The position numbers were made by a program, and so were the translations under genes. From Cyanobacteriota bacterium (GTDB lineage: Bacteria; Cyanobacteriota; Cyanobacteriia; PCC-6307; Cyanobiaceae), in assembly GCA_026389335.1 (NCBI GenBank), contig JAPLIB010000153.1:1-64000 (forward strand): a stretch of DNA of 64,000 nucleotides. Reading direction: 5' to 3'. The notes beneath the pieces are model-generated. The model did not search any database and was not told the origin of the DNA. It worked only from the letters and a program-made list of their open reading frames with translations. Numbering within the stretch: the stretch's first letter is position 1; every line of letters begins with the position of its first letter. Below, one piece after another: positions 4,256 through 42,857 of the stretch.

Positions 4256-4305
4256 AGCCGCTGGCTCTCACCAGCCCAGACAGGGGCTGGCGAGAGCCAG
4301 CGGCT
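4256..4305. repeat. Long near-perfect hairpin
   Basis: AGCCGCTGGCTCTC pairs perfectly with GAGAGCCAGCGGCT, and the stem continues inward (CCAGCCC with GGGCTGG) with one mismatch, giving about 21 pairs around a short loop. It has no T run, so it is not a standard terminator. Its right foot overlaps the CTAG boundary of the MITE. Confidence 0.65.
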
Positions 4306-4529
4306 AGGAGCGTGTTGCGCATAGATCTCCGAGCAGAAAGTGGGGGCGTTTCCGCCGCCGAGGAGATTCAATCCGGAATCGAACTGAGAAAGATGCGAAT
4401 TGATTTTGGGTCGGTGGTTCGCTCAAACTAGTTGCACCACAATAGACCTGCCTGAGACCGAATTTGACGTTGGCGTGGAGCGAATCGGGTCTTTTCGTCC
4501 GGAACGGTCTATGTGCAACAGGCTCCTAG
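4304..4529 (-). mobile_element. MITE-like element, copy A (226 bp)
   Basis: Bounded by CTAG on both sides. The terminal inverted repeats are about 22 bp: CTAGGAGCGTGTTGCGCATAG at the left and the complement of CTAGGAGCCTGTTGCACATAG at the right, differing at two positions. The reverse complement matches the element at 42590-42857 nearly base for base, except for a 41-nt segment and one T that are absent here. There is no transposase frame inside. CTAG or TA as a target duplication fits mobilisation by IS5- or IS630-type transposases; that family call is inference. Confidence 0.85.
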
Positions 4530-4764
4530 GCAGACAGCGGCTAAGCGGACAGCGGCTGGGCAGACCTGGAAAAATCAGAACAGCATGGGAGCTTCGGGCC
4601 TTGGCTTTTCGGAGTGCGCACGCTGCGCTGCCATCACTCTGAACTATGCAGATTTCAGACTGGATTGAGGCCGGTGTTCATGGCCGAGGCTGGATCGTGG
4701 TGATTGCTGGCAAGCGGTGAACTGACCAGTGCCGCGGCCTGGGCCCTGGCGCTGCGCATTCTTA

Positions 4765-4775
4765 CCCCCCCCCCC
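4765..4775 (+). repeat. 11-nt C homopolymer
   Basis: A run of eleven C between ACTTA-like and GTGGG sequence in the gene-poor region. It lies in no recognised gene. Such tracts are prone to slipped-strand length change. Confidence 0.7.
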
Positions 4776-5246
4776 GTGGGCCAGGCCTCATGAGACTACT
4801 GAAACCATGCCGCAGCCAGAGTGAAGAGACCGCCGAACACCGATCTCGGCCCTGGGGGAGCGCTCTTCACCACCCGGCAACACTGTGTTGAGCGGCTTTT
4901 CACACGGCCGGCCGGACACCAGGCAAGATTTCTGAGGTTTTTCAGCATTCGCTCAGGAAAGCAGGCCGCGCTGGGCGGGATCGCCAGCTTCACGCGGCCG
5001 CAGACACGCTCCTGGAGCGCGGCTTTGCCGTCGATCGCCAGCAGGGCGGCTTGGGAGCAGAGCCGCCGGGCCTTGCCCAGGCGAGCTGGAGCGGCAGGAG
5101 GACTGAGCAAGGCGGCGGCTGTCCGTGGATCAACGGCAGCAGACGGGTCGCGGGAAGTCTGGAGCTCGGCAGCGGGATGGCGCGCCCCCTTCCGCCCTCA
5201 GCCGGCAGCAGCAGCCTGCTTACAGTGATGGATCTGCTGGGCGTCC

Positions 5247-5579
5247 ATGTCTGAGCGCGGCCTCCCCGATCGGACTCCGGCCTCCCGCCCGGCAGCCGCA
5301 CTTCCGTCGTCGCTGCAGCAGCTTCGGCACGACCTCTCGGAGCGGGAAGTGGAGATCATCGAGCTGGTGGCCACCGGCCTCACCAACCAGGAGATAGCCG
5401 CCCAGCTGGTGATCAGCAAGCGCACCGTCGATAACCACGTGAGCAATATCTTCACCAAAACCGGCGCCAAGAACCGGGTGGCCCTGCTCAATTGGGCCAT
5501 GGACAACGGCAAGATCTGCCGCGATGGCTTCAACTGCTGCTCGCTGGAGAACCCAGAGGCCGCCCGGAACGCCGGCTGA
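5247..5579 (+). CDS. pedR: PedR-like stand-alone LuxR-type transcription regulator
   Basis: 110 aa. After a short Pro/Ala-rich N terminus, residues about 28-87 form a complete LuxR/NarL helix-turn-helix (LSEREVEIIELVATGLTNQEIA, then ISKRTVDNHVSNIFTK). There is no receiver domain. The C terminus reads NWAMDNGKICRDGFNCC, with Cys91, Cys97 and Cys98. This architecture and Cys-containing tail match PedR of cyanobacteria, a thioredoxin-linked regulator of photosynthesis-related genes; redox control is inferred from that family. It converges with the CYTH gene. The exact orthology is by pattern, not alignment. Confidence 0.75.
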   Translation: MSERGLPDRTPASRPAAALPSSLQQLRHDLSEREVEIIELVATGLTNQEIAAQLVISKRTVDNHVSNIFTKTGAKNRVALLNWAMDNGKICRDGFNCCSLENPEAARNAG

Positions 5580-5646
5580 GGCCCGCTGCCAAGGCACATT
5601 GCCAAGGCAAAACAGCCGCAGGCTGAAAGCGTCGGGCCTGTGCCGC

Positions 5647-6312
5647 TCAGGCCGCCAGCAGAGCCTGGCGCTCGGATTCACTCCAGAGCGCCAGGGGCCT
5701 TGCCGCCAGGGCCGCATTGCTGAGCTCATGGCGGCCGGTGATGTCCCTGCCGCACCAGGGCGGCAGGCTCACCAACTGATCGGCGGCCTCCAGCTCCACC
5801 TCGGCCACCACCAGCGGTGCGTTGCCGGCCTCAAACACATCCAGCACCCAGTCACCGCCGGCCAGATCCAGGCCGTAGCGGCATTTGAGCAGCTGGTGGG
5901 GAGCCAGCTCCAGCAAGGCCTGGGCATCTGCGGCGGGAATGGGGTACTCGAACTCCAGGCGGGTGAGGGCCAGCCCCAGACCTGCCTGCTGAGCTTGCGA
6001 GGCACCCAGGTCTGCCGGGCTGGGAAGCTGCGACGGCGGCGGTGGTGCCTTGAGGGTGAGCCAGGCAGCCGCCGGCAAGCCGGCACCAGCCAGGGGCTCG
6101 CTGGTGCGCACCCGCAGGGTGAGACCAGCGGCGCCACTCAGCAGATAGCCCTGCCGCAGCCTGGCCTGCCAGCGCACATGGGGGCGCCAGCCTTGGCCCT
6201 CCACCAGGAAGCGACGCTCAATCTCCAGAGCCAGGGGGTCCTCAGGGTGCGGACTGCGCCGATTCTGACCGGCAGCCTCAGAGCTGGCGTAGATCGAGGG
6301 CCCAGGCGGCAA
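5647..6312 (-). CDS. CYTH-domain phosphohydrolase/cyclase-family protein
   Basis: The domain begins at about 6234 with ALEIERRFLV, the E-x-E-x-(R/K) signature of CYTH enzymes (triphosphate tunnel metalloenzymes), which hydrolyse or cyclise triphosphates with a metal. Further strand motifs include GLTLRVRTS, WLTLKAP, LEFEYPIP, KCRYGLDL, WVLDVFEAG and VVAEVELEA, all typical. The C terminus carries the common DITG..ELSNAALA end. The start is uncertain: there is no ATG near the domain; a TTG at 6312 is used here, an ATG at 6375 gives a Cys-rich unlikely N terminus, and a CTG sits at 6234. A small membrane ORF overlaps its 5' end. The substrate is probably inorganic triphosphate, by family. Confidence 0.8.
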   Translation of the reverse strand: MPPGPSIYASSEAAGQNRRSPHPEDPLALEIERRFLVEGQGWRPHVRWQARLRQGYLLSGAAGLTLRVRTSEPLAGAGLPAAAWLTLKAPPPPSQLPSPADLGASQAQQAGLGLALTRLEFEYPIPAADAQALLELAPHQLLKCRYGLDLAGGDWVLDVFEAGNAPLVVAEVELEAADQLVSLPPWCGRDITGRHELSNAALAARPLALWSESERQALLAA

Positions 6313-6427
6313 TCCGCTGGCGCGTGTGATGCCGCTGCCAGGCACACAGCGGCACCAACAACAGCGAAAGGCCATGGGAAGGAAGCAGCAGCACCAGAGC
6401 CAGCAGCGCCACCGCCCACCAGGGCAT
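6278..6427 (-). CDS. Small single-pass membrane protein (49 aa), candidate
   Basis: ATG at 6427 gives MPWWAVALLALVLLLPSHG followed by a second hydrophobic stretch and a basic amphipathic tail (WQRHHTRQR). The ATG sits 6 nt after the stop of another short frame (6434-6517), with GGGG between them as a possible ribosome site, and the frame ends inside the start region of the CYTH gene. The spacing suggests translational coupling through the three frames. Function unknown and conservation untested. Confidence 0.45.
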   Translation of the reverse strand: MPWWAVALLALVLLLPSHGLSLLLVPLCAWQRHHTRQRIAAWALDLRQL

Positions 6428-6433
6428 CACCCC

Positions 6434-6517
6434 TCAGGGCCGGCCCTGAGGACAGAGGTGTTTGCGGCGGGCCAGCCGCACGGTGGAGCGCTCCTGGGGG
6501 GTGAGGCCGATTTCCAT
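6434..6517 (-). CDS. Very short frame (27 aa), candidate
   Basis: ATG at 6517 encodes MEIGLTPQERSTVRLARRKH followed by 7 residues and TGA. It reads like a basic helical peptide. It precedes the small membrane frame 6278-6427 by 6 nt. The same frame is open upstream to 6664, so a longer 76-aa product is possible. Evidence is limited to spacing. Confidence 0.25.
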   Translation of the reverse strand: MEIGLTPQERSTVRLARRKHLCPQGRP

Positions 6518-6840
6518 AGCAGTGAACTTACAAAATGCTCGGCCCGGCAGAATGAAGGCGCGCTGAAGGACCTCGCCGAGGGCGATGGGTTTCCACCTTC
6601 TGCATCGATGAACATCCCCAAAGACAATGCTGAAAAAATCTTGCTCGGCCTTGGTTGATCGCATCGCCGCCAGCCAGAAACCCAGTATTTATCAGCTTTT
6701 TTCCACAACTGGGAGGATGCCGATCCGGTCTCCTCAGGATGATTCAGCCGGTCTTTTGGGGGCAGCGCGCAAAATCGCCCATCGCGCGCCCATCTGGCCA
6801 GAGCAAGCCAAATTCCGCAAGGCGTGCCTGCTGGCCGCCT
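6518..6840. other. Intergenic, no gene recognised
   Basis: About 320 nt between the nadK stop and the short frame upstream of CYTH. It is somewhat AT-richer around 6610-6720 than its surroundings. Open frames exist on both strands, but none has recognisable protein features. Confidence 0.4.
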
Positions 6841-7800
6841 TCAGTTGTGGGAGGGCTCGACGCTGGTGAGGCTGCCGGCCCAGTGCAGCTTGCGGGTGAG
6901 GGTGCGGTAATAGGACGGGCTCTGCTCCAACAGCACCATCAGGGCCGGATGGGGGCCGCGCTGCACCACACAGCGATCGCCCGGCTCCAGCACCGTGGCA
7001 TGGGCGCCGTCCTTCCAGAGCTTCACCCGGCGGCTGCTCTCGCCCAGGGGCCAGACCGTGAGGCGCGAGCGGGGCGGCACCACCACCGCCCGGCTGGAGA
7101 GGCTCATCGGGCAGATCGGGTTGACCACGATCGCCTCGATGCCGGGGTGCAGGATCGGCCCGCCGGCCGCCATCGCATAGCCGGTGGAGCCGGTGGGGGT
7201 GGCGATGATCAGGCCATCGCCGCGGTACTGATCCACCACCTCACCGTCGATGTCGAGCTCCAGCACACAGGTGGGCGACACTTCATCGAGGCAGGGGCGA
7301 AAATAGAGGTCATTGAGGGCGCTGTGGGGCCCCTCGGCCGCAACATCCGCAGCCAGGTCTTCCGGACCGCCATCGCCGGGCTGGGGCACGCCATCGCCGC
7401 GATCGATGCGGGCCTCCAGCATCATGCGCCGCTCCAGGGCGAAGCGGTCGTCCCGCAGGCGCTGCCAGAGGGTGTCGTCGCCATCGAGGCGCAGCAGGGC
7501 CCGGTCATGGGTGAGGAAGCCGAGATGGCCACCGATGTTGAAGCTGAGGATCGGCACCTCGAAGCGGGCCAAATGGCGCGCCGCCCCCAGCACCGTGCCA
7601 TCACCACCCAGCACCAGGGCCAGATCGGGCAGGCCTTCCTCGGTGGCCAGCAAGCCCGGGAAAGGATTGGCGGCCAGGCCGGAGGAAGCAACCGTGACAC
7701 TGACACCCTGGAGGCGCAGATCCTCGGCGCAGCGGCGGGCATGGCGCTGGGCCGACTGGCTACCGCGCCGCACAATCAACCAGATCCGTTCAAGCCGCAT
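6841..7800 (-). CDS. nadK: NAD kinase
   Basis: 319 aa. Phosphorylates NAD to NADP using ATP or polyphosphate in the cytoplasm. The hallmark GGDGT lies at residues 65-69, followed by the glycine-rich [10 protein letters not shown], the ALND metal/NAD-binding motif and [16 protein letters not shown], in family order. The length fits cyanobacterial NadK. It lies just downstream of ndhEGIA on the same strand, 34 nt after the ndhE stop, and may be read from the ndh transcript. NADP supply fits the photosynthetic context. The identification is firm. Confidence 0.97.
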
Positions 7801-7834
7801 GCGGATCGCTCAAGCGCTACAGGTACGAGATTGG

Positions 7835-8197
7835 CTACCAGCGCAGCAGGTTGAAGCGCTCCATATCCACTGTTTCGCGGTTGCGATACAGAGACAGCAG
7901 GATCGCCAGACCAACAGCAGCTTCAGCCGCAGCCACGGTGATCACAAAGATGGCAAACACCTGGCCGCGAATCAGTTGGCCATCGAGATAGTCGGAGAAG
8001 GCCATCAGATTGATGTTCACCGCGTTCAGCATCAGCTCGATGCTCATCAGCACCCGCACGGCATTGCGGCTGTTGATCAGCCCCCACACGCCGGTGCAGA
8101 ACAGCAGGGCCGCCACAGCCAGGTAGGCCTGCAGGGGAATCGTGCCACCCAGAACAATGGTGACGGCGTCGGTGGCGGCTCGGGGATCAGCGCTCAT
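7835..8197 (-). CDS. ndhE: NDH-1 subunit NdhE (NuoK-like)
   Basis: 120 aa, three transmembrane helices. Contains the conserved Glu-bearing segment [17 protein letters not shown] in the second helix and [17 protein letters not shown] in the third, both proton-pathway features of NuoK/NdhE. Part of the thylakoid membrane arm of cyanobacterial NDH-1, which carries out respiration, cyclic electron flow and CO2 uptake. ATG at 8197 overlaps the ndhG stop by 4 nt (ATGA), indicating translational coupling. Confidence 0.97.
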
Positions 8198-8829
8198 GGG
8201 GTGGTCTCCAGCAGAGGTTGGCCGCCAGCGTTGGCGGATGGATCAAGCAGCAAGGGGGTGCGGGTTTTCTCGATCAAGCCCTGATCCACAGGTTCGCCCG
8301 TGATCACATCACTGCTGTAGACATCGCGGCGCGCCAGCACGATGGCGCCGATCATCGCCATCAGCAGTAGTACAGAGGCCAGCTCGAAGGGCAGGAGATA
8401 GTCGCTGAAAAGATGTTCGCCGATGCGGATGGTGGCCTCTTCGCCCACCGGCAGCGGCCCCGGCAGGGCCCAGTGGGTGGTGAACGCCACGCGCAGCAGC
8501 AGCACGAACAGCCCCGCACACACCCCACCCGAAAGCAGACGGCGCAGCAGCAGCCCCGGGATGACCGCCAGGGTTTCCTTCTTGTTCACGAGCATGATCG
8601 CGAACAGGATCAATACGTTCACCGCGCCCACGTAGACCAGGATCTGGGCCGCTGCCACAAAGCTGGCATTGAGCAGCAGGTAGAGGCCGGCCACCCCAAG
8701 GAACACACCGCCGAGTAGGAAGGCGGAATAGACGATATTCGGCAGCAGCACCACGCCCAGGGCTCCCACCACCACGACGGCGGCCAGAACCAGGAAACAA
8801 AGCTGCTGAATGGTGGAAGCGAGCGTCAT
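8194..8829 (-). CDS. ndhG: NDH-1 subunit NdhG (NuoJ-like)
   Basis: 211 aa. Five hydrophobic helices with the conserved [21 protein letters not shown] segment of NuoJ/NdhG, and a long soluble C terminus ending in a Gly/Thr-rich tail. Membrane-arm subunit of NDH-1. Its start ATG overlaps the ndhI TGA by one base (TGATG). Gene order ndhA-ndhI-ndhG-ndhE is the standard cyanobacterial operon. Confidence 0.96.
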
Positions 8830-9506
8830 CAGGACTGGGCTCCTTGGTCAGCCACCGCTGGGTTCGGGGCCGTTGAACTGCTGGCAGTTTGCTCGGTCGC
8901 CGTCGCGGCTGGCGCTGCTGGGGGCTGGGCCAGGGTGGCCAGCACCTGCTCGGGCAAGCGGCCGGCTCGGGGCGCATTGGCGGGCACGCCATGGGGCTCC
9001 ATCACGCCCTTGGGCAGATAGGCCAGCTCGCGCAGGGCGAACACCGCCGGATCACTGGTGACGCTGGTGGGCAACCGACCGAGGGCAACGTTGTCGTAGT
9101 TGAGGCTATGGCGATCGAAGGCGGCCAGCTCGTACTCCTCCGTCATCGACAGGCAGTTGGTGGGGCAATACTCCACGCAGTTGCCGCAGAAGATGCACAC
9201 CCCGAAATCAATCGAGTAATTGCGCAGCTCTTTCTTCTTGGTGGCCTTGTTCATCACCCAGTCCACCACCGGCAGGTTGATCGGGCACACCCGCACACAC
9301 ACCTCGCAGGCGATGCACTTGTCGAACTCGTAGTGGATGCGGCCCCGGTAGCGCTCCGAGGGGATCAGCTTCTCGTAGGGATACTGAACCGTGATCGGCC
9401 GGCGCTTGAGATGGTCGAAGGTGACCGCCAGGCCCTGACCCAGGTACTGGGCGGCGCTGACCGCCTCCTTGGTGTAGTCACCGACTTTCTTGAGGAACCC
9501 GAACAT
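8829..9506 (-). CDS. ndhI: NDH-1 subunit NdhI, 2x[4Fe-4S] ferredoxin-like
   Basis: 225 aa from the ATG at 9506 ([16 protein letters not shown]), the usual start; the open frame continues upstream without meaning. Two cluster motifs are present: [12 protein letters not shown] and [12 protein letters not shown]. Together they bind two [4Fe-4S] clusters that carry electrons in the connecting arm of NDH-1. After about residue 190 there is an Ala/Pro/Thr-rich extension typical of picocyanobacterial NdhI. Operon with ndhA upstream and ndhG downstream. Confidence 0.97.
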
Positions 9507-9589
9507 GGTGCTGGTGGGGGAAGGGGCGGATCCGGCGATACGACGCTCGGACCATCTTGACCGGGAAAGCCCGGAGCTGACGAACGGTC

Positions 9590-10726
9590 TCAGCCTCCGA
9601 ACGCCATCGGGAACGCGAGCTTGAGCGCAGCCGTGACCAGCAGGTTGACCAGGGCGATCGGCAGCAGGAACTTCCAGCCCAGATCCAGCAGCTGGTCGAT
9701 CCGCACCCGCGGCACGGTCCAGCGCAGCAGGATCGCGAAAAACACCAGCAGGTAAGCCTTGAGCACGGTCATCACGATGCCGGTGGTGGCCGTGATCACC
9801 TGCACCACGGGGGCATCCACCGACTGGCCCAGCCAGCCCGCCAGCCACTCCACCGGCACCGGGAAGCCCCAGCCGCCCAGGTACAGCACCGACACCAGCA
9901 GGGCCGAGAGCACCAGGTTGATGTAGCTGCCCAGATAAAAAAGGGCGAACTTCATGCCCGAATACTCGGTCTGGTAGCCAGCCACCAGCTCCTCCTCCGC
10001 CTCCGGCAGGTCGAACGGCAGGCGCTCACATTCAGCCAGGGCGCAGATCCAGAAGATCACGAAGCCCACCGGCTGACGCCAGATGTTCCAGCTGAGAATG
10101 CCGGCGCCGTTCTGCTGGTTGACGATGTCGACCGTGCTGAGCGAATTGCTCATCATCACAATCGCCAGCACCGCCAAGGCCAGGGGGATTTCGTAGCTGA
10201 TCGACTGGGCCGCTGCCCGCAGCCCACCCAGCAGCGAATATTTGTTGTTGCTGGAATAGCCGCTCATCAGCAGGCCGATCGGCTGGATGCTGCTGAGCGA
10301 GATCCACAGGAAGATGCCCACGCCCACATTGCTGATCAGCAGGTTCTGACCGAAGGGCACCACCAGCCAGGAGAGGATCACCGGCACCAGCACCAGCACC
10401 GGCCCGAGCGTGAACAGCAGGCCATCGGCCCGGGCCGGGATGATGTCTTCCTTGAAGACGAGCTTGAGGCCATCGGCCATCGGCTGCAGTACCCCGAGGG
10501 GGCCGGCGTATTCCGGGCCGATGCGCTGCTGCACGGCGGCGGAGATTTTGCGCTCCAGCCAGACGTTGACCAGCACGCCGACCACGGCGGCCACCAGCAC
10601 GGTGACCATCGGCAGCGGCAGCCACAGCAGCCGGGCCGCACCGGGGCTGAGCCCCAGTCCCTGCAGGGCATCAACGAAGCTGGCCTGCAGATCGAGACCT
10701 GAACTCACGAGGGCGGTCGTCTCCAT
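9590..10726 (-). CDS. ndhA: NDH-1 subunit NdhA (NuoH-like)
   Basis: 378 aa, about eight or nine transmembrane helices. Conserved NuoH segments include [34 protein letters not shown] and the [20 protein letters not shown] loop. It links the peripheral and membrane arms of NDH-1 at the quinone site. It is the first gene of the ndhAIGE operon, with 83 nt to ndhI. The gltA stop lies 24 nt upstream of its start, so the ndh operon may also be read from gltA. Confidence 0.98.
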
Positions 10727-10750
10727 GCTGGCGAAGGGGGTGGGTGGACC

Positions 10751-11998
10751 TTAGGAGGGGGTCGGTCGACCCTCGAGCGGCAGCCAGGGCCGCTCCAGGG
10801 AACCGGTGTAGATCTGGGTGGGACGATAGATGCGATTGGCTCCCAGCTGTTCGCGCCAGTGGGCCAGCCAGCCAGCGGTGCGGGCAATCGCGAAGATGGG
10901 CGTGAACAGATCCCGCGGGATGCCGAGCTTGCGGTACACGAGGCCGGAATAGAAGTCGACGTTGGGGAAGATGCCCTTGGGGCCCAGCCGCTCGGCCGCC
11001 ACCGCCTCCAGCCGCCGGGCGACGTCGTACATGCTGTCGTAGCCGAAGCGCAGGAACAGATCCTCCGCCAGGCCCTGCAGGATCACCGCCCGCGGATCCT
11101 TGACCCGGTATTCGCGATGGCCGAAGCCCATGATCTTGCGCTTCTCGGCGATGGCCCGATCAAGCCAGGCCTCCACCTGATCCACCGAGCCGATCTCCTC
11201 GAGCATGTCGAGCACATCCTCATTGGCACCGCCGTGCAACGGCCCGGCCAGGGTGCCCACCGCCGAAGCCACCACCGCATAGGGATCGGTGAGCGTGCTG
11301 GCGGTGACGCGGGCGCTGAAGGTGCTGGCGTTGAGGCTGTGCTCGGCGTGCAGGATCAGGCAGGCATCGAAGATGCGGGCCGCCAGCGGATCGGGCTCCC
11401 GCTCCGTGAGCATGTACAGGAAGTTGGCCGAATAGGCCAGGTCGTCGCGGGGCTGGATCGGATCCTGGCCTTTGCGGATCAGCTGGAAGGCCGCCACCAT
11501 CGTCGGAATCCTGGCGATCAACCGCACCACCGCCTCGGTGATGTACTGGGGGTCGTACAGGGCGCGGCGGGAATAAAAGAGGCCCAGGGAGGCGGCGCTG
11601 GCCTGCAGGGCATCCATCGGATGGCCACTGGCTGGGAAGCACTTCATCATGTCGCGGATGCGGAAACTCACCCGCCGGTGCATCTGCACCTCCTGCTCAA
11701 AATCGCGCAGCTGGAAGATCGTGGGTAGCTCGCCCCAGATCAGCAGGTAGGCCGTTTCCAGAAAGGTGCTGTGGGAAGCCAGCTGATTGACCGGATAGCC
11801 CCGATAGGTGAGCACCCCACGGCTGCCGTCGATGTCGCAGATCGCCGACTGGGTGGCCGGCACCCCCTCGAGGCCGGGGCGAAAGACCGGCGCTGCGGCC
11901 GCAGCCGGGGTATCCGCCGGCGCGGAGGTGGCAGGGGCCGCTCCGGCGTCCGCTCCATTCAGCGGGCTGGCCATTTCAGGGGTGATTTTTGCCGCCAT
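10751..11998 (-). CDS. gltA: Citrate synthase
   Basis: 415 aa from the ATG at 11998 (MAAKITPEMAS); the frame is open another 16 codons. Condenses acetyl-CoA with oxaloacetate. Catalytic residues are visible: His in GPLHGGANE, His in MGFGHREYRV and Asp in NVDFYSGLVY. The N terminus has an Ala/Pro-rich stretch of about 35 residues before GLEGVPATQSAICDIDG. It is followed by the ndhA operon. It lies downstream of sixA on the same strand (78 nt apart). Confidence 0.97.
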   Translation of the reverse strand: MAAKITPEMASPLNGADAGAAPATSAPADTPAAAAAPVFRPGLEGVPATQSAICDIDGSRGVLTYRGYPVNQLASHSTFLETAYLLIWGELPTIFQLRDFEQEVQMHRRVSFRIRDMMKCFPASGHPMDALQASAASLGLFYSRRALYDPQYITEAVVRLIARIPTMVAAFQLIRKGQDPIQPRDDLAYSANFLYMLTEREPDPLAARIFDACLILHAEHSLNASTFSARVTASTLTDPYAVVASAVGTLAGPLHGGANEDVLDMLEEIGSVDQVEAWLDRAIAEKRKIMGFGHREYRVKDPRAVILQGLAEDLFLRFGYDSMYDVARRLEAVAAERLGPKGIFPNVDFYSGLVYRKLGIPRDLFTPIFAIARTAGWLAHWREQLGANRIYRPTQIYTGSLERPWLPLEGRPTPS

Positions 11999-12076
11999 CA
12001 CGATCGAGTCCGATTTGGCGAACCTACGCGGCGACGTCCAGCCCACGCCGTAGCGCTGGCTGCCACCGGCGCGATC

Positions 12077-12619
12077 TCAACCGAGGAGGCTGCGGGGGCT
12101 GAGCAGCAGCCGCAGGCGGGCGCTGCCAGGCGTGGGACCAGCGGGCAGCTCCAGCAGGGCCAATCCCGCCTTGCGCAGCTCGATCGCTCCCGGATGGGCC
12201 CCCAGCAGGCGCGCGGCCAGCAGGCCCAGATCGGGCTCATGGCCCACCAGCAGCACCCGCAGTCGCGCCGGCCGCTGCTCGCCGTTCCCCGGCTGGACCG
12301 GACCCAGCGAAACCGGGGCCAAGCCGGCCAGGGCATGGACCAGCAGCGGCAGGGGATCGTGACCGGGCTCCAGGCTCTCGCTCAGTTCCAGGGCCGGCGC
12401 CAGACCGACGGCACGGGCAATCTCCGCCGTCTGACGGGCCCGGGTGAACGGACTCGACAACATCCGATCCGCCGCCAGACCCAGGGCCAGCGACCGCTCC
12501 AGCACCTCACGGGTGCGCTGGCGGCCCTTCGCCGTGAGCGCCCGGGTGAGCTCCGGGCGCTCCGGGCTGCGCTCCTCGGCAATGCCATGACGAAGCAACA
12601 GCAGTTCGGCGGCAGCCAT
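12077..12619 (-). CDS. sixA: Phosphohistidine phosphatase SixA-like
   Basis: 180 aa. Histidine-phosphatase fold with LLLLRHGIAEER near the N terminus (RHG at about 10-12), SSPFTRARQTAEI and LLVGHEPDLG, the second catalytic His. Such enzymes remove phosphate from phosphohistidine in phosphorelay or PTS-like proteins. The partner here is unknown. Sits between the DUF3352 gene and gltA on the same strand. Confidence 0.88.
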   Translation of the reverse strand: MAAAELLLLRHGIAEERSPERPELTRALTAKGRQRTREVLERSLALGLAADRMLSSPFTRARQTAEIARAVGLAPALELSESLEPGHDPLPLLVHALAGLAPVSLGPVQPGNGEQRPARLRVLLVGHEPDLGLLAARLLGAHPGAIELRKAGLALLELPAGPTPGSARLRLLLSPRSLLG

Positions 12620-12799
12620 CGGTGTTCAAACAGCCTGAGGCCATCCAACAGCCCCATGCCCCCCTGAGGAAGCTGGGGGCAACAACGGCCAACAGATGCA
12701 GATGCAGTTGCAGTTGTAGATGCAGTTGCTATCGCAGTTGCTGATGCAGCGGCCCTGGAAGGCCCGAGCTGGCGCGCGCCCGAGCGCCAGCAACAACCA

Positions 12800-16742: not shown

Positions 16743-16763
16743 ACGAGGCAGCCAACTTCCGCC

Positions 16764-34470: not shown

Positions 34471-34471
34471 G

Positions 34472-35233
34472 ATGGAGGCCTCACTCCTCCTGATCCCCGC
34501 AGTGCTGGGCTGCGGTGCCATGGCCACAGGCCTGGCCCGCCGACATCAGGCTCGCAAACTGGCCCATCTGCTGGATGCCCGCTCATCCAGCGTTACCGAA
34601 CTGCTTGACCTCCAGGCCACGGTGGCCGAGCAGATGGGTGAGGGCTCCTTTCAAGAGCAGGTGAAACTCTCGGGGGAGATCGTCTGCACAGAACCGCTCA
34701 CGGCCCCATGGAGCGGCGAACCCTGCGTGGCATTCATCAACACAACCACCTGCCTGATGGAGGTGCGCACGGAAACCACCCGCACCGACAGTGACGGCAA
34801 CAGCCGCATCGAGGTGAGCTGGGAGCGCCGGGAGGAAACCCTCGACAAGCTGGAACGCCGGCAAGGGTTTGAGCTGCGCCACGGCTGCCAGACCCTGCCG
34901 CTCAAGCCCGATGACGCCGAACTGGAACTGGAAACCGTATTCACGGAAGTGGAACCACCCACCCGCCGCGACACGGCCGACACCCGCCAACTGGGCATCC
35001 GCCGCGAAGAGGCGATCCTGCGCGCCAGCGGCATGGCCTTCGTGGTGGGGGAGTGCAGTGATGCCAGTGGGAGCCTGCTTCTACAAGCACCACAGACAGG
35101 GGGCTTGTTTGTGGTGCGCCGCGGCAATGAAGAAACATTCAGCCGTGCCATTCGCCGCTGGCGGCGCATCTGGATGGTGAGCACCTGGGTGTTACTTGGG
35201 ATAGCCGCAATCCTGCTGCTGGCAAGCCTCTAG
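34472..35233 (+). CDS. GIDE/MUL1-type membrane protein without RING domain
   Basis: 253 aa from ATG 34472, 2 nt after the chlM stop; a start at 34457 would overlap chlM. An N-terminal hydrophobic helix (LLLIPAVLGCGAMATGLA) and a C-terminal helix (WMVSTWVLLGIAAILLLASL) bracket a domain with the GIDE signature: CTEPLTAPWSGEPCVAF, an S-W-E pattern, QTLPLKPDDAELE and RREEAILRASG. GIDE domains are known from mitochondrial MUL1, which also has a RING domain. Bacterial versions lack the RING and are uncharacterised. Probable co-transcription with chlM. Confidence 0.78.
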   Translation: MEASLLLIPAVLGCGAMATGLARRHQARKLAHLLDARSSSVTELLDLQATVAEQMGEGSFQEQVKLSGEIVCTEPLTAPWSGEPCVAFINTTTCLMEVRTETTRTDSDGNSRIEVSWERREETLDKLERRQGFELRHGCQTLPLKPDDAELELETVFTEVEPPTRRDTADTRQLGIRREEAILRASGMAFVVGECSDASGSLLLQAPQTGGLFVVRRGNEETFSRAIRRWRRIWMVSTWVLLGIAAILLLASL

Positions 35234-35254
35234 ACCCAGCCAATGCCGCCGCCT

Positions 35255-36094
35255 TCATCGCTGCCATTCCCCCTGCTCCGCGAGCAAGATTGTTACGGAC
35301 CGACTCACCTCAAGCCGGCCATCTTCCCAGACCATGTAAAGATAGGCACCATGACGAAACTCATAGCCAAGAAAGCGGCAGGGCGTAACACCATCAGCAC
35401 AGGTCACATGGAGCGTTTTCCCCATGAGACGCAGCGATGCGCCGCTTTGCCGATCAACCCCCAGATAACTCACACGGTCACACACCACAGCACCCTCAGG
35501 GCAACGGCGGTTCACAACCACACGAAAGCTAGGTGTGAGCAGCACTTCTCCCTCCGAATCAAGTAATTGATCCAACAGGGGCTGCAAGCTCCAGCTACTA
35601 CCAGATTTACGATCACCGCCATAAACGATGTCACTGATCAGCCAAGTATTAGCCCATCTTCGCAACACAAGATTGACAATTTGATTGGATACCCGCTGAG
35701 GGCCCAAGCCTGCCCGAACAGCCACCTGAGCTTTCAAGCGACCATCCACCTCCAATCGGCATCGCTGGAGTTGATAACCGTAGGAGCTCACCTGGACCCC
35801 ATTAAAAGGACCGAAATCGAGGGAGGCCTTGCCGGCCCGTGCCATGTTGAAAGCCGCCTGCAGATCAACATAGAAAGCTTGCACAAACAGCTGCTGCTGC
35901 TGCTGCAAATGATCACGATAGGCATCACCTGCATGGAGATACCAGTCATAAAGCCGAGTCACGGTGCGGGCTGCCTCAGCAGGGCATCCCGGTGCCGCAT
36001 GCGCCGCAGCAGCACCCCCACCCCCACCCGGAGCGCAAACCCCAACCATCAACCCCACAGAGATTGAAGCCAAACGGGGAACGAGGAGTCGCAT
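35255..36094 (-). CDS. Exported protein with DUF3828-like domain
   Basis: 279 aa from ATG 36094; one codon earlier is a TTG. Signal peptide (about 1-34, with a Gly/Ala-rich run ending AHAAPG). The domain has VTRLYDWYLHAGDAYRD, LDFGPFNGVQVSSYGYQLQRC and VNLVLRRWANTWLISDIVYGG, which resemble DUF3828. The C terminus contains four cysteines (RRCPEGAVVCDRV, HVTCADGVTPCRF) and FRHGAYLYMVWEDG, resembling periplasmic inhibitor-type folds. It converges with the GIDE gene. Function unknown. Confidence 0.72.
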   Translation of the reverse strand: MRLLVPRLASISVGLMVGVCAPGGGGGAAAAHAAPGCPAEAARTVTRLYDWYLHAGDAYRDHLQQQQQLFVQAFYVDLQAAFNMARAGKASLDFGPFNGVQVSSYGYQLQRCRLEVDGRLKAQVAVRAGLGPQRVSNQIVNLVLRRWANTWLISDIVYGGDRKSGSSWSLQPLLDQLLDSEGEVLLTPSFRVVVNRRCPEGAVVCDRVSYLGVDRQSGASLRLMGKTLHVTCADGVTPCRFLGYEFRHGAYLYMVWEDGRLEVSRSVTILLAEQGEWQR

Positions 36095-36300
36095 CAAACA
36101 CAGACCGCTATCGGCGTAGCTTCATCGATCCACCGAGGAGTTGCACGCACCCAATCAGCCAACTGCACCCACCCCAAGCGGGCGGCCATCACTGCCGCGC
36201 CAGGCACCGGCCCACCAGACCCAGACACAACGTTTTGCAAAGAGCCGAAGGAGCAAGTCGCCCCGTGTACCATGAGATCCAAGCCAACAGTCCCCTAAAA

Positions 36301-36666
36301 ATGCTCCACCCAAGGAAGATCAGAACCGGAGCACTTAGGGCTGCAACTCTCAGCAAAGAACTGCGGCATGTCTTACTGGCCGCAACCGGCTGCCTAGGCC
36401 TAGCCCTCACCCCGACAGCGGCGCTCGCCTGGGAACCGGGCGACGACTGGAGGGATAGCCAATGCCGCACCAACCGCGATGTAAGCGGAAATCCCGTAGA
36501 GGTGTGCCAGGGGATCTATGACGGCAACAAGATATACCTTGGCGTTTACTGGAACGACAACTCGGAAGTTGTCGGCCCCTGCTCCCCTCAAGATCCAGCA
36601 CCAATAGAGTTCAAAGGCATGTCCAAATCTGACGCAAAGACCTGGGTCAAAACATATTGCCCTTAA
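36301..36666 (+). CDS. Small exported Cys-containing protein
   Basis: 121 aa from ATG 36301. Signal peptide with core VLLAATGCLGLALTPTAALA. The mature part, about 77 aa, begins WEPGDDWRDSQCRTNRD and has four cysteines (SQCRT, EVCQG, GPCSP, TYCP), suggesting two disulfides. Between the divergent DUF3828-like gene (204 nt away) and the methyltransferase gene. No family recognised. Confidence 0.68.
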   Translation: MLHPRKIRTGALRAATLSKELRHVLLAATGCLGLALTPTAALAWEPGDDWRDSQCRTNRDVSGNPVEVCQGIYDGNKIYLGVYWNDNSEVVGPCSPQDPAPIEFKGMSKSDAKTWVKTYCP

Positions 36667-36816
36667 ACAATCATTTCGCCAGCATCGGCAGACACGAGGC
36701 CCGAGGGGTAGCGGCAACGGTGCTGTGTGAATACGGATTGAATAAGGGCCGCCACTGGCAGTCGCCACCTCCACCGAGCAAGCCCCAGAGCGGCGTTCCA
36801 GCAGCGCCGTGATGTC

Positions 36817-37980
36817 ATGTATCACGGCTCAAACCACAGGACCGTTGCGATCAGCGCTGGAAGAACTGGTACAATTGATTCGATCGAAACAGATTTCTGG
36901 GTGATCAAATATCTCGGCTCAAAGCGCACAATCCTGCCGAGACTAATGGTAGCGATACGTAGCTTACAAGGCGTAAATTCCGTGCTGGATGCGTTTTCTG
37001 GAACCTCAAGAGTGGGCTATGAGCTAAAAAAGAGCGGCTATCAGGTGTTCAGCAACGACATCAACACCTATGCCCATACCCTGGCCCAGTGCCATGTGGA
37101 AGCGGAAGCCAACTCCACCCTGACAACAGCCACCCAATTAATTAAAGAGCTCAATCAACTATCAGGCAAACATGGCTATATCACCGAAACCTACTGCATC
37201 AACAGTCGATTCTTTCAACCTCAAAATGGCGAAAGAATCGATGCGATCCGCGATAAGATCGAGTCTTGGCAGCTTTCACCAACCCTGAAGGCCATCTGTC
37301 TCACAGCGTTGATCGAAGCGGCCGATCGAGTTGATTCCACCACCGGGATGCAGATGGCCTACCTGAAGCAATGGGCCAAACGCTCCTACAACCCCCTGCA
37401 GCTGAGACTGCCGGCAATGCTTAACGCCGCAGCCAATCACCCCTGCCAGTCCTATCAACTGGATGCCCTCGCCGCGGCCGATACCATCCCGGCGGACTGC
37501 GCCTATCTTGATCCACCTTACAACCAACACTCCTATTTGGGAAACTATCACATCTGGGAAAGCATCGTCCGCTGGGACCAACCAGAAGTGTATGGCATCG
37601 CCTGCAAGCGCATCGACTGCAAACAGAATAAAAGTGATTTCAACAGCAAGCCAAAGGCACTACCCACCTTCACAGATCTGATCAGCAGATTACGCACACC
37701 CAACCTGATCGTCTCGTTTAGCAATGAGGGCTTCATTGATCGCAGTTCCATGGAGAAGCTGCTGAGCGAGAAGGGCCATCTGCAGACGATCGAGCTGGAT
37801 TACAAACGCTATGTGGGAGCCCAGATCGGTATCCATAACCCGGAAGGGGATCGCACTGGGGTCGTCAGCCATCTGAAGAACAAGGAATTCATCTACATCG
37901 TTTCTGCCAAGCCCCTCAGCCCTGGCCGCCTCGACGAGCTCCAGCACCGGGCTGGTGAGCCCTTGGGTACACGGCTGTGA
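36817..37980 (+). CDS. Orphan N6-adenine DNA methyltransferase (D12 class)
   Basis: 387 aa. The catalytic motif DPPYNQHSY begins at residue 232. Motif order is FxGxx (DAFSGTSRVGYELKKSGY) first and DPPY later, the D12 class order. IKYLGSKRTILPRL near the N terminus is the usual opening of such enzymes, and a GTG at 36901 just before it is an alternative start. No restriction endonuclease adjoins, so it is probably solitary. Target sequence is unknown. It lies among secreted-protein genes of accessory type. Confidence 0.88.
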   Translation: MYHGSNHRTVAISAGRTGTIDSIETDFWVIKYLGSKRTILPRLMVAIRSLQGVNSVLDAFSGTSRVGYELKKSGYQVFSNDINTYAHTLAQCHVEAEANSTLTTATQLIKELNQLSGKHGYITETYCINSRFFQPQNGERIDAIRDKIESWQLSPTLKAICLTALIEAADRVDSTTGMQMAYLKQWAKRSYNPLQLRLPAMLNAAANHPCQSYQLDALAAADTIPADCAYLDPPYNQHSYLGNYHIWESIVRWDQPEVYGIACKRIDCKQNKSDFNSKPKALPTFTDLISRLRTPNLIVSFSNEGFIDRSSMEKLLSEKGHLQTIELDYKRYVGAQIGIHNPEGDRTGVVSHLKNKEFIYIVSAKPLSPGRLDELQHRAGEPLGTRL

Positions 37981-38043
37981 TTACGGAGCGGCCTGCCACC
38001 ATCTCCTGCTGATACCGCCAGCCGGTGGCCAGAGTCGTCACTC

Positions 38044-38397
38044 TCAGCGCTCAAACCGAAAAGAAAACAACAGCAGACCAAAAACCGCGCCAATCGCCAA
38101 GCCAACGACACCCGCCGCCAGGAAAGCCAGCGCGGCGATCAGCAGCGCAATCACCAGCTGCAGAATCCGGACAGTCCGATTGATCCTGCGCGCTTGTTCG
38201 CGTCGCAGCAGCTGACGCCGACGCCGCTCGAACACCTGATAATCGTCGCTCGCGGCACCTTCTGCGGATGGCTGACCAGAACGACCAGCCCGCTCCTGGC
38301 GCGACGGCGGCTCCGGGGGCCTGTTGAAGTCCGGGATCCACCAGCGGGGCACGTCAGTCCCGTATTTGAGTCTGCGATTGCGCTCGTCTGCCGTCAT
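38044..38397 (-). CDS. Small tail-anchored membrane protein
   Basis: 117 aa from ATG 38397 (MTADERNRRLKYGTDVPRWWIPDF). Residues 1-65 are polar, with a conserved-looking RRLKYGTDVPRWW. A basic Arg-rich helix (FERRRRQLLRREQARRINR) precedes two closely spaced hydrophobic helices at the C terminus. Convergent with the methyltransferase gene and located 128 nt upstream of the end of potC. Function unknown; possibly a conserved cyanobacterial family. Confidence 0.65.
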   Translation of the reverse strand: MTADERNRRLKYGTDVPRWWIPDFNRPPEPPSRQERAGRSGQPSAEGAASDDYQVFERRRRQLLRREQARRINRTVRILQLVIALLIAALAFLAAGVVGLAIGAVFGLLLFSFRFER

Positions 38398-38524
38398 GAA
38401 CCACAACTCCCTGGCTGCTGGCAGGGCCATGGCCTCAAGATAAAGGCGCGCTGGCGACTTGAGGCAGCAGCAACGATCGGCGCCAGCCAGCCGGGCTCAG
38501 ATCCGCTGATCAACAGTGCCCCCT

Positions 38525-39304
38525 TCACGGCCGCCCCTGGCGGAACGGCGAGGCCAGCGCCAGCAGGGCCGCGCTGACCAGCAGCACCAGGCTGGAGAGC
38601 ACCTGGATCTGGGGCGAGATCTCCCGCTGGAAAGCCCCGGCCAGATAGAGGGGCAGGGTGACGATTTCGCCGGCCGTGAAGCTGCTGACCACGTAATCGT
38701 CGAAGGACAGGGAGAAGGAGAGCAGGGCGGCCGCCAGCAGCCCCGGCACCAGCAACGGCAAGGTGACGCGGCAGAAAGCCTGCAGCGGCGGCGCCCCCAG
38801 ATCCTGGGCCGCCAGCTCCAGGGTGGAATCGAAACCCGCCAGCCGGGCCTTGAGGGTGAGCGCCGCATAGCTCAGGCAGAACAGGCTGTGGGAGAGCAGC
38901 AAGGTGAGCGGTCCGCGCGGCAGATCGACGCCCACGAACAGGTTGAGCAGGGCGGTGGCCAACACGATCTCCGGGTTGGTGAGCGGCAGCGCCAACAACA
39001 GCTCGATCGAGCGGCGGCCCCGGAAGCGGGCGCGCTCGAGGGCCAGCGCCATCAGGCCCCCCAGCAGCACCGCCAGCAGCGTCGCGGCCAGGGCCAGGCC
39101 AAGGCTGGTGAGAAAGGCCTCGCTGAGGGCGGCATCGCGCAGCGGCTGGCGCCAGTTCTCCAGGGTGAAGCCCTGCCACACCAGGTTGAAGCGGCCCCGC
39201 GGCGCATTGAAGCTGAACAGCACCATGACGACCACCGGTGCGTACAGCAGCCCGAAGGCCAGGGCACTTGCCAGTCCCAGCAGCACGCTCCCGATCCGGT
39301 TCAT
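38525..39304 (-). CDS. potC: Polyamine-type ABC permease PotC
   Basis: 259 aa, six transmembrane helices. N terminus LLGLASALAFGLLYAPVVVMVLFSFN and the EAA-like loop AAQDLGAPPLQAFCRVTLPLLVPG are typical of PotC. Last gene of the potADBC operon. ATG overlaps the potB TGA (ATGA). Imports spermidine/putrescine-like substrates with PotB, PotA and PotD; specificity is by family. Confidence 0.9.
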   Translation of the reverse strand: MNRIGSVLLGLASALAFGLLYAPVVVMVLFSFNAPRGRFNLVWQGFTLENWRQPLRDAALSEAFLTSLGLALAATLLAVLLGGLMALALERARFRGRRSIELLLALPLTNPEIVLATALLNLFVGVDLPRGPLTLLLSHSLFCLSYAALTLKARLAGFDSTLELAAQDLGAPPLQAFCRVTLPLLVPGLLAAALLSFSLSFDDYVVSSFTAGEIVTLPLYLAGAFQREISPQIQVLSSLVLLVSAALLALASPFRQGRP

Positions 39305-40320
39305 GGCAGCGGCAGCTCCTCCAGCCCCCGGCCGCGCAGCTGCAGCAACACGGCCACGGTGATGAGGGCCATCAACACCAGCGTGAGCGCCGCCGCCCGC
39401 GGCGCCTGCATCTGCACCAGCAGCAGATTCTCAATCGTGTTCGCGATCATGCGCTCGTTCGGCCCGCCGAGAATCAGGGGATTCACCAGATCACCGGCGG
39501 CGGGAATCAGGCTCAGCAGGATGCCAGCCGCCAGCCCCGGCCGTGACAGGGGCCAGACCACCTGGACAAAGCAGCGCCAGGGACCGGCATGCAGATCGGC
39601 GGCCGCCTCCAGTAGCCGGTGATCAATCCGCTCCATCGCCACCACCAGGGGCAGCACCAGGAACGGCAGCAGGTTGTTGGTGAGCCCGAGAATCACCGCT
39701 GTGGCGGTGTTCAGCAGCCGGCCATCGCGCAGCACCCCCAGGGCATCGAGCGGCCCAGTCAGACCGAGGGCCGACACCAGGGCCAGCACCGGTCCCTGGT
39801 CCCCGAGCAGGCTGGTCCAGGCGATCGCCCGCACCAGATAGGAGCTGAGCGAGGGCAGCACCACCAGGCCGATCAGGAGCGGCTGCCAGCGCCCGCCGCG
39901 GAAGCGGATCGCGAAGGCCAACGGATAGGCCAGCAACAGGCCCAGGGCCGTGGCGACGACGGCGTAGCCCAGGGAGCGAGCCAGGATCGGGCCGTAGGCC
40001 TGCAGCACCTCCAGGTAGTTGGCCACCCGGCCGCTGAACACGGTCTCCAGGCCGAAGCGACTGAGCGGCTCCGACAACGACAGCGGCACCAGGGCCAGCA
40101 GGGGCAGCCCATAGAGCCCCAGCAGCCAGATCAGGCCCGGTGCCAGCAGCAGCCAGGGCCACAGGCGCCTCTGAACCCCGGACCGGCGCGGCCCTTGCCA
40201 CCGCTGGCGCTGCCTCCGCAGTGCAGCCTTGGATGATTCAGCCGCGAGAGTTTCAGCAGTCAGTGGCTCAGCCCTCAGTGATGCGGGCGAAGCGCTCGTC
40301 CCAGCGGGCCTCTTCGGCAT
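39301..40320 (-). CDS. potB: Polyamine-type ABC permease PotB
   Basis: 339 aa. About 55 N-terminal polar residues, then six helices: LWPWLLLAPGLIWLLGLYGLPLL, a conserved EAAADLHAGPWRCFVQVVWPLSRPGL loop and ERMIANTIENLLLVQ. The first 18 codons overlap the end of potD by 53 nt, and no better downstream start is obvious. Membrane part of the transporter. Confidence 0.9.
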   Translation of the reverse strand: MPKRPAGTSASPASLRAEPLTAETLAAESSKAALRRQRQRWQGPRRSGVQRRLWPWLLLAPGLIWLLGLYGLPLLALVPLSLSEPLSRFGLETVFSGRVANYLEVLQAYGPILARSLGYAVVATALGLLLAYPLAFAIRFRGGRWQPLLIGLVVLPSLSSYLVRAIAWTSLLGDQGPVLALVSALGLTGPLDALGVLRDGRLLNTATAVILGLTNNLLPFLVLPLVVAMERIDHRLLEAAADLHAGPWRCFVQVVWPLSRPGLAAGILLSLIPAAGDLVNPLILGGPNERMIANTIENLLLVQMQAPRAAALTLVLMALITVAVLLQLRGRGLEELPLP

Positions 40321-41476
40321 CGCTCAGGGGGCCGAACATGTGCAGCCGCTGCTGCTCGGCCGCATCGGGGAACATCAGCGGATTGCGGGCCAGGGCGGCG
40401 GTGGCCGGAGTCTTCGCCAGCACCTGCTGCACCCCCTCCACCGGCGAGATGTACTGCACGGCGGCGGCAATGCGGGCCGCCTCGACGGGGTCGTAGACCC
40501 AGTTCAGCCATTGGGCCACCTCGCGGCGATGGCGAGACCCCTTGGGCATCACCATCACGTCGGCCCAGAGCACGCCACCGCTTTCGGGCACCACGAAGCG
40601 CAGATCCGGTTGCTCCAGGGCCAGTTGGGCCACATCGCCAGACCAGCCCATGCAGGCGGCCAGATTGCCGGAGAGCAGATCGTTCTGGTAGTCGTTGCCG
40701 GTGAAACGGCGGATCTGGCCGTCCCTTCGGGCCTTCTCCAACCGCTGGAAGCTGGACTGGGCCGTGGCCCAGGTGGGACGGGTGATGTCCTGACCGTCGG
40801 CCAGCATCAACAGGCCCATCGTGTCGCGCATCTCCAGCAGCGCCGAGACCCGCCCCTTGAGGGCCGGATCGAACAGGTCGTCGATGCCCCGCAACGGCCG
40901 GCCGGTGGCCTTGATGTTGTAGGCGATGCCGGCGATGCCGGACTGCCAGGGCAGGCTGTAGCGCTGCTGGGGATCCCAGGCGGGATGGCGCAGGGAGGGG
41001 ATCAGGTTGCGGGCGTTGGGCACCTGCTCCAGGGGCAGCGGCTCGATCCAGCCCAGGCGGTTCAGCCGCTCGGCCATCCAGCCGGTGAGCACCACCAGAT
41101 CCTGGGAGAGGGGCCGGCCGGCGGCCAGCTGGGGACGGATGCGGGCGAAGAACTGGCGCACATCGTTGATGTCCTCGACATAGCGCAGATCGATGCCGGT
41201 CGCGGCGCGGAAGCGCTCGACACTGCCGGGAGCGCCGGGTTGGCCCGGATCGATGTAGAGGGGGAAGGTGGAGATCACCAGCTCGCCACCACGCCCACCG
41301 CCTGCGGCCGCACCCTTGGGGCCCCGGCCGCAGGCCTGCAACAGCCCGGGGGCCAGCACGGCGCCGGTGGCTCCCCAGCCCAGCCGCCGCAGGAAGGCCC
41401 GGCGGCCGGACCGGAAGGGAGCGGCGGCGGCAGCACCCAGGCCGTCGCAGCGGCCCTCCTGGAAGAGCGGGGCCAT
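40268..41476 (-). CDS. potD: Polyamine-type substrate-binding protein PotD
   Basis: 402 aa from ATG 41476; the frame extends 17 codons upstream inside potA. A twin-Arg-like RRAFLRRLGWGATGAVLAPGLLQAC segment shows a Tat/lipoprotein-type export signal with Cys at the end of the hydrophobic region, suggesting a lipid anchor. The binding domain has ELVISTFPLYIDP, YVEDINDVRQFF, PWQSGIAGIAYN and MGWSGDVAQL. Its start base coincides with the last base of the potA stop. Confidence 0.9.
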   Translation of the reverse strand: MAPLFQEGRCDGLGAAAAAPFRSGRRAFLRRLGWGATGAVLAPGLLQACGRGPKGAAAGGGRGGELVISTFPLYIDPGQPGAPGSVERFRAATGIDLRYVEDINDVRQFFARIRPQLAAGRPLSQDLVVLTGWMAERLNRLGWIEPLPLEQVPNARNLIPSLRHPAWDPQQRYSLPWQSGIAGIAYNIKATGRPLRGIDDLFDPALKGRVSALLEMRDTMGLLMLADGQDITRPTWATAQSSFQRLEKARRDGQIRRFTGNDYQNDLLSGNLAACMGWSGDVAQLALEQPDLRFVVPESGGVLWADVMVMPKGSRHRREVAQWLNWVYDPVEAARIAAAVQYISPVEGVQQVLAKTPATAALARNPLMFPDAAEQQRLHMFGPLSDAEEARWDERFARITEG

Positions 41477-42564
41477 CAGCTCTGGGGGGCCTCCAGCAGG
41501 TGACTGTCGGCGGGATTCCAGCGGCACCAGACTTCCTCACCGATGCGCAGATTGTCCGGCAGAGCGGCGCTGGTGTCGATGGCGATCAGCTGCAGATCAT
41601 CGGCACCACACAGCCGCACCTCCACCGTGGCCCCCTGGAAGACCAGCTCGCGCACCCGCGCCCGCAGCCCCCGCTCCCCCTGGCCCGGTGGGGCGGCACT
41701 GAGCCGCAGGCGCTCCGGACGTAGCAGCCGCAGCCCTTCGCCGTTCACCGCCGGCAGCAGGTTGGCGGCCCCCAGGAAGGTGGCCACCACGGCACTGCGG
41801 GGCTGGTCGTAGAGCTGGCGCGGCGTGCCCACCTGCTCCAGCCGGCCGCCGTGCATCACCGCCAGGCGGTCGCTGAGGCTGAGGGCCTCTTCGCGGTCGT
41901 GGGTGACGAGCAGGAAGGTGATGCCCACCTCCCGCTGGATGCGCTTGAGCTCGGAGCGCATCGTGCGGCGCAGGTCGGGATCGAGGGCGGCCAGCGGTTC
42001 GTCGAGCAGCAGGGCAGCCGGGGCATTGACCAGGGCCCGGGCCAGGGCCACCCGCTGCTGCTGGCCGCCGGAGAGCTGGTGGGGCCGGCGCCGGGCCAGC
42101 TCAGACAGTCGCACCACCTCCAGGCTCTCGCCCACCCGCCGGCGGAGCTCCGGCTCCGGCAACCGCTGGGACCGGGGGCCGAAGGCGACGTTGTCCCAGA
42201 CGCTGAGGTGGGGAAAGAGGGCGTAGTTCTGAAACACCAGGTTCACCGGCCGCCGATGCGGCGGCGCCTCGGTGAGATCGCGGCCCTGCAGCAGGATCCG
42301 GCCCGCCTGGGGGCGATCGAAGCCGGCGATCAGACGCAGGGTGGTGGTCTTGCCGCAGCCGGAGGGGCCCAGCAGGGAGAAGAACTCGCCGGCGGCGATC
42401 GAGAGGCTGAGCCCCTCCAGGGCGACCAGCTGGCCGTAGCGCCGGCTGACGTTGTGCATGGCGATCACGGCGGCGCTCTCGTCACCGCCACCGCCACTGC
42501 CACTGCCACTGCCGCTCTCACGGCAATCGCTGCCGCCGATCTGGGTGGCAGGCTCCGAGAGCAC
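41476..42564 (-). CDS. potA: Polyamine-type ABC ATPase PotA
   Basis: A GTG at 42564 is used; the frame continues to a GTG at 42606, inside the MITE. Walker A GPSGCGKTT, Q-loop VFQNYALFPH, signature LSGGQQQRVALARAL and Walker B LLLDEPLAALD; a TOBE-like regulatory domain follows (FLGAANLLPAVNGEGLRLLRPERL). The stretch before the first strand is a Gly/Ser spacer coded by short CCACTG repeats. The MITE at 42590 lies right at the 5' end, so the native promoter may have been displaced or replaced. First gene of potADBC. Confidence 0.9.
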   Translation of the reverse strand: MLSEPATQIGGSDCRESGSGSGSGGGGDESAAVIAMHNVSRRYGQLVALEGLSLSIAAGEFFSLLGPSGCGKTTTLRLIAGFDRPQAGRILLQGRDLTEAPPHRRPVNLVFQNYALFPHLSVWDNVAFGPRSQRLPEPELRRRVGESLEVVRLSELARRRPHQLSGGQQQRVALARALVNAPAALLLDEPLAALDPDLRRTMRSELKRIQREVGITFLLVTHDREEALSLSDRLAVMHGGRLEQVGTPRQLYDQPRSAVVATFLGAANLLPAVNGEGLRLLRPERLRLSAAPPGQGERGLRARVRELVFQGATVEVRLCGADDLQLIAIDTSAALPDNLRIGEEVWCRWNPADSHLLEAPQS

Positions 42565-42589
42565 GGGCGACAGGCGATAGCTTCCCTGT

Positions 42590-42857
42590 CTAGGAGCCTG
42601 TTGCACATAGACCGTTCCGGACGAAAAGACCCGATTCGCTCCACGCCAACGTCAAATTCGGTCTCAGGCAGGTCTCGCCGGCTCCCTCACGTCAGGCCAG
42701 CCAAAACCTGAGATCGATTGTGGTGCAACTTAGTTTGAGCGAACCACCGACCCAAAATCAATTCGCATCTTTCTCAGTTCGATTCCGGATTGAATCTCCT
42801 CGGCGGCGGAAACGCCCCCACTTTCTGCTCGGAGATCTATGCGCAACACGCTCCTAG
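42590..42857 (+). mobile_element. MITE-like element, copy B (268 bp)
   Basis: Same element as 4304-4529 but in the opposite orientation and with 41 extra internal bases (beginning CGCCGGCTCC) plus one T. CTAG at both ends; terminal repeats CTAGGAGCCTGTTGCACATAG and the complement of CTAGGAGCGTGTTGCGCATAG. No transposase frame. It lies between potA and the RluA-like gene, whose stop is 71 nt to the right. Confidence 0.88.

Follow-up and report, generated by a model that had tools for sequence, protein, structure and literature searches.

A CTAG-bounded MITE family, its candidate IS1182-family parent and recurrent shortening at an internal core in a picocyanobacterial genome

Two CTAG-bounded copies in opposite orientation

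Two short sequences with CTAG at either end lie in opposite orientation on a contig of a cyanobacterial genome (assembly GCA_026389335.1), raising the questions of what they are, how they came there, and whether the 38 kb of genes between them form a unit. The window, i.e. the whole stretch of 64,000 nucleotides analysed, contains the following features:

4304..4529, + strand: MITE copy A, 226 bp including both CTAG, shortened right of the core, absent at the matching place in relative G028
42590..42857, - strand: MITE copy B, 268 bp including both CTAG, full length, with one additional base at the left edge of the core
4432..4442, + strand: 11-nt core TTGCACCACAA in copy A
42718..42728, - strand: 11-nt core TTGCACCACAA in copy B
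42676..42716, - strand: 41-nt block present in B and missing from A, starting next but one to the core
4304..4327, + strand: terminal repeat of A, CTAGGAGCGTGTTGCGCATAGATC, resembling the left end of an IS1182-family IS
42590..42611, + strand: opposite terminal repeat of B, CTAGGAGCCTGTTGCACATAGA
4256-4277 and 4284-4305, no strand: arms of a 22-nt inverted repeat, the right arm ending within the left CTAG of A

The earlier note had described near-identical, CTAG-bounded copies in opposite orientation, and alignment bears this out: every one of the 226 bases of A recurs in B, with zero substitutions, and B exceeds A by 41 bases in a single block plus one base. CTAG bounds both copies on either side, and the distance from A to B is 38,060 bp. 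A 15-nt end pattern, allowing up to two mismatches, matches the window four times, once at each end of A and of B, against an expectation of 0.55, and four matches were reached in 0 of 100 shuffles. Folded as a single strand, B is far more stable than its shuffles (z -4.5, 0/200 shuffles), which is to be expected of an element carrying long imperfect inverted repeats; an Rfam scan of the window gave no match at the gathering score, and a reading as an RNA family was therefore dropped. Copy A is followed by repeats of the CAGCGGCT type (window 4526-4555).

From comparison of the sequences, we consider it very probable that A and B are non-autonomous copies of a single MITE family of about 268 bp, moved in trans by an IS1182-family transposase with the same ends and with CTAG as its target. 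Insertion would take place at CTAG, with one CTAG remaining on each side of the new copy.

Copy number and distribution of the family

The earlier note had taken the copies for a MITE and had proposed a BLASTN copy count and a search for a parent transposase with like ends. Using B as the blastn query, 13 clear copies were found in the own genome (G000), some of them as two pieces owing to internal deletions, and further copies in relatives; a sequence profile, built by aligning 11 full-length copies taken from five genomes, identified 38 elements in the own genome (41 rows, three of which are second pieces). With stricter filters, profile matches are present in 12 of the 42 genomes of the genus, the own included, compared with 8 of 42 by blastn at E 1e-6. 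Among the 60 nearest genomes, 12 (own included) have a blastn match at E 1e-3, some of these matches being IS ends only, and blastn found the MITE in none of the 23 that belong to other genera. The cut-out copies measure 160-282 bp, which leaves no room for a transposase gene; the elements are therefore short, multicopy and without a transposase gene, and the MITE claim is upheld by these properties together with ends common to an IS1182-family IS of the own genome. Neither of the two outcomes that the note had named as telling against it, a lack of other copies or a sequence fixed in all relatives, was observed.

Carriage by phages or plasmids was considered and rejected, since blastn against phage and plasmid collections gave no match in either, and an exact search for the terminal inverted repeats (TIRs) in viral contigs likewise gave none. 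In the accessible portions of the literature on IS1182, CTAG and MITEs in cyanobacteria and picocyanobacteria (Synechococcus, Cyanobium), no description of this MITE family was found; the family is new, and of an already known kind. Two local arrangements involve further copies. On contig C66 of the own genome (66559-66813 and 66805-66987), a young shortened copy abuts an old, degenerate one at its end. In relative G024 (C12:98638-98905, L036), a MITE copy of its own is located next to the pseudouridine-synthase-like gene flanking B, in the opposite orientation, and is probably an independent insertion.

A candidate parent element

The search for a parent yielded an intact IS on contig C105 of the own genome (L031:1398-3167), 1,770 bp long with CTAG on both sides. 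Its 521-aa transposase scores 344 bits against the NCBIfam model NF033551 (IS1182; cut-off 270) and exceeds the cut-offs of both Pfam DDE_Tnp_1 and DUF772, which places it in the IS1182 family, and of the 32 matches to transposases in the genome it alone is a full-length open frame. Compared with the first 24 bases of A, the left IS end shows one or two differences; the right IS end bears only a partial resemblance to the MITE ends, which counts against the proposed parentage. The terminal inverted repeats of the MITE thus recur in an autonomous IS residing in the own genome, closely at the left end and partially at the right. We infer that the mover is the C105-type transposase, which would act in trans on the MITE copies. 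Five contigs (C169, C103, C168, C51 and C45) break off a short way into a left IS end of the C105-IS kind, and C30 has the same coordinates, on which basis one further multicopy IS was probably left unresolved by the assembly.

Exact matches to a 22-nt end pattern were found in 38 stretches from named genomes, among them MAGs of Acidobacteria, Myxococcales, Gemmatimonadetes, Proteobacteria and Deltaproteobacteria (L141, L142, L144, L149, L150, L155, L158, L164, L165, L167, L171, L172, L174 and L177), and the cyanobacterial records comprise Cyanobium, Synechococcus, Microcystis elabens and an uncultured cyanobacterium, which makes a picocyanobacterial origin of the window probable. A transposase relative (E 1e-5) lies within the stored stretch in 8 of the 38, L141 among them. 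The sequence GATC is present in the IS and MITE ends, and a gene for a D12-class adenine DNA methyltransferase is located between A and B (window 36817-37980); on account of these two observations, methylation could, speculatively, matter for the IS and the MITE.

Empty sites and relative age of the copies

Relatives that lack a given copy preserve several of the target sites. In G017, B is missing and its flanks join at a single CTAG; a single CTAG likewise marks the empty site of copy C148 in G028 and that of C149_39k in six relatives (G028, G011, G015, G021, G032 and G007). In the own genome, 10 young MITEs and 2 ISs have kept CTAG at either end, and target duplication there is matched by empty sites elsewhere. 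By contrast, several sites have no clean single-CTAG empty counterpart, which weighs against the favoured reading: at the sites of C80 (five relatives), C109 and C66, the sequence of the relatives runs through but contains no CTAG; for C48 and C43, their alignment is gapped or broken around the site; A is missing from G028, where part of a flanking repeat is missing too; and for C40, no relative among those compared spans the site. Copies C82, C79 and C149_28k occupy the same sites in G028, and are therefore older.

The empty sites in relatives support one half of the earlier proposal that the identity of A and B implies recent movement or gene conversion. Gene conversion was rejected as the source of this identity and is not needed, because A and B are no closer to each other than to other young copies, which are equally alike. 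The longest inverted repeat at 12 insertion sites averages 4.8 bp compared with 4.6 bp at 49 CTAG controls (some of which are ends of copies), which speaks against insertion favouring inverted repeats; the fold energy, however, is lower at the insertion sites (-31.9 vs -26.2, A being the extreme), so that such a preference may still exist. With its probable parent IS, its dated insertions and its empty sites, the family offers markers of recent movement in a picocyanobacterial genus.

Two of the copies lie in reading frames that are uninterrupted in relatives. A shortened copy (G000:C80:295-492, L009) interrupts a frame that we take to encode an AbrB-like antitoxin beside a PIN-like toxin frame, and a full-length copy (G000:C109:414-681, L003) lies inside a frame presumably resembling UDP-glucose dehydrogenase.

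Shortening from an internal core

Ten copies in the own genome have both CTAGs intact, of which three are full length (B, C149_39k and C109) and seven are shortened, each of the seven deletions having one end at the edge of the 11-nt core TTGCACCACAA. The deletions lie to the right of the core in A, C43, C148 and C48 (A retaining one extra base) and to its left in C40, C80 and C66, and the core is whole in all seven. The sequence common to the two sides of a deletion junction amounts to 0-2 nt, and outside the deletion six of the seven show no substitution relative to the full-length reference, C40 having three. Small insertions are present at the left edge of the core in B (+1) and C149_39k (+3, TTG twice), and would be real insertions if the CTAGTTGCACC form of the right-shortened copies is the original. 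In 4,000 trials with random deletions, the best common anchoring was 4/6, 4/7, 5/9 and 4/11, compared with the 7/7 observed in the own genome; the trials assume independent deletions, which related copies need not have, and C43 and C148 may be a single event plus a 4-nt slip.

Junctions were read in 11 shortened copies, comprising the seven above, C180 and C63 of G007, and C6 and C154 of G028; C172 of G007 was left out (Ns), as were degenerate copies, because their ends are not exact. Eight of the 11 are anchored at the core without homology, including G007 C180, which has a left-hand deletion like those of the own genome. G007 C63 was rejected as a further case, since its deletion, although at the core, runs between 10-bp repeats, as its host flank showed; G028 C6 is shortened between CTGAGA repeats and not at the core, and the shortening of G028 C154 starts elsewhere. 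The site of G028 C6 is shared with C149_28k of the own genome, and only the G028 copy is shortened, indicating an in situ deletion between short repeats.

As the cause of shortening from one internal point, we regard a fragile site as just as likely as the excision of a nested element. In the former, to which we give tentative credence, the core would be a fragile or polymerase-stopping site at which staggered breaks or aborted gap repair follow transposition, nothing ever having been inserted. The junctions at the core edge are those expected, the strong single-strand fold of B (z -4.5) is consistent with such a site, and the G028 C6 comparison documents deletion in place once, though between short repeats. 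Against this, a fragile site does not account for the retention of the whole core after loss on either side, and the core lies at no clear hairpin tip in the consensus fold.

In the latter, which is possible but doubtful, a cut-and-paste element would have inserted into the core, duplicating an 11-bp target (TTGCACCACAA on each side), and would have left the copies separately. End joining after one-sided DNA loss would then keep one whole core and delete either the left or the right, and joining with little loss would leave the small insertions of B and C149_39k. All nine core copies differ from the presumed progenitor by an event ending at the core edge, although this progenitor is derived from the variants themselves; the near absence of shared sequence at the junctions (at most 2 nt), the failure of random deletions to exceed 4/7, and the like left-hand deletion of G007 C180 point in the same direction, the second of these being weakened if C43 and C148 are one event. 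A candidate for a still occupied copy is a G007 locus split over contigs C61 and C160, both of which end in the core with a 13-nt overlap, and whose flanks are contiguous in four of the six genomes searched (G028, G000, G021 and G032), G011 and G015 aligning only to about the junction. The locus may be an occupied copy or merely an assembly branch, as a contig break can also stem from branching between the G007 copies. Also against the nested element, in the own genome TTGCACCACAA is found in nine copies and two other places, none of them at a contig end and with no occupied copy seen; C109 is full length with an intact core; and G007 C63, G028 C6 and G028 C154 were shortened between repeats or elsewhere. 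If the deletions are indeed excision footprints, the MITE copies constitute a natural record of excision repair and a ready-made set of end-joining products; to our knowledge, end-joining data are scarce for the host genus.

The intervening 38 kb and the assembly

The earlier note had suggested that the inverted copies could recombine and flip the DNA between them. This is possible in principle, as a single contig carries the two copies (226 and 268 bp) in inverted orientation and free of substitutions, but that the pair delimits an invertible segment is very unlikely. Orientation was read from two markers, a block of genes on the inner side of A (window about 5.3-6.0 kb) and, on the far side of B, the pseudouridine-synthase-like gene; among the matches listed, both occur on one contig in at least 20 relatives (G002, G004, G008, G011, G013, G014, G015, G018, G020, G022, G023, G024, G025, G026, G027, G029, G035, G060, G061 and G062). 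Marker order and strand are as in the window in 19 of these 20, and in G020 the markers are 0.49 Mb apart in another order; the inverted arrangement was found in 0 of the 20 testable relatives among the matches listed, so the two orientations that an invertible segment would present do not both occur there. Both window junctions are in the orientation of relatives, the flanks of A lying on one contig in G028 and G011, and those of B in G017. Because A and B are just two of the 13 clear copies in the own genome (38 by profile), their bracketing of the segment is incidental: the opposite orientation is chance, and the intervening 38 kb is no unit.

At the B end (window 41476-44158), a PotA-like gene adjoins the pseudouridine-synthase-like gene, likewise in G017. 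The two genes are on different contigs in several relatives (e.g. G011, G021 and G024), on which account the pot genes may have reached this location late.

An assembly artefact, with repeats misjoined by a short-read assembler, is scarcely credible: the assembly does consist of 171 contigs, several of which end inside an IS of the C105-IS family, but the 13 copies are internal to contigs with different flanks, no more than 2 nt are common to the two sides of a deletion junction, and in relatives that lack the element several of the flanks run on continuously.

Comparison with known systems

Nezha is a MITE of cyanobacteria, as is the present family.

The IS1182-family element IS1272 of Staphylococcus aureus, which belongs to the same IS family as the candidate parent, is described in the accessible part of its report as replacing inverted repeats, with no target duplication (PMC5678879). 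This different mode of insertion counts against the favoured reading. By contrast, the present elements have CTAG on both sides, and inverted repeats at their sites are no longer than those of controls. Because CTAG flanks both sides of the 10 young MITEs and 2 ISs, and a single CTAG remains in empty sites, insertion of the IS1272 type does not apply here; it is a mode reported for one IS1182-family member (PMC5678879) and may or may not define the family.

Among the closest counterparts are the IS1182-derived MITEs of Methanosarcina acetivorans (parent ISMac2), which are 160-169 bp long, are present in 7 and 14 copies and share 25-26 bp terminal repeats with an IS1182-family IS, one of the two also having 4-bp direct repeats (PMC3852290). 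They differ in being archaeal and of other sequence, and the accessible part of that report makes no mention of anchored shortening (PMC3852290). As portrayed there, they resemble the present family in being short and multicopy, with IS1182-family terminal repeats and, for one of the two, 4-bp direct repeats (PMC3852290).
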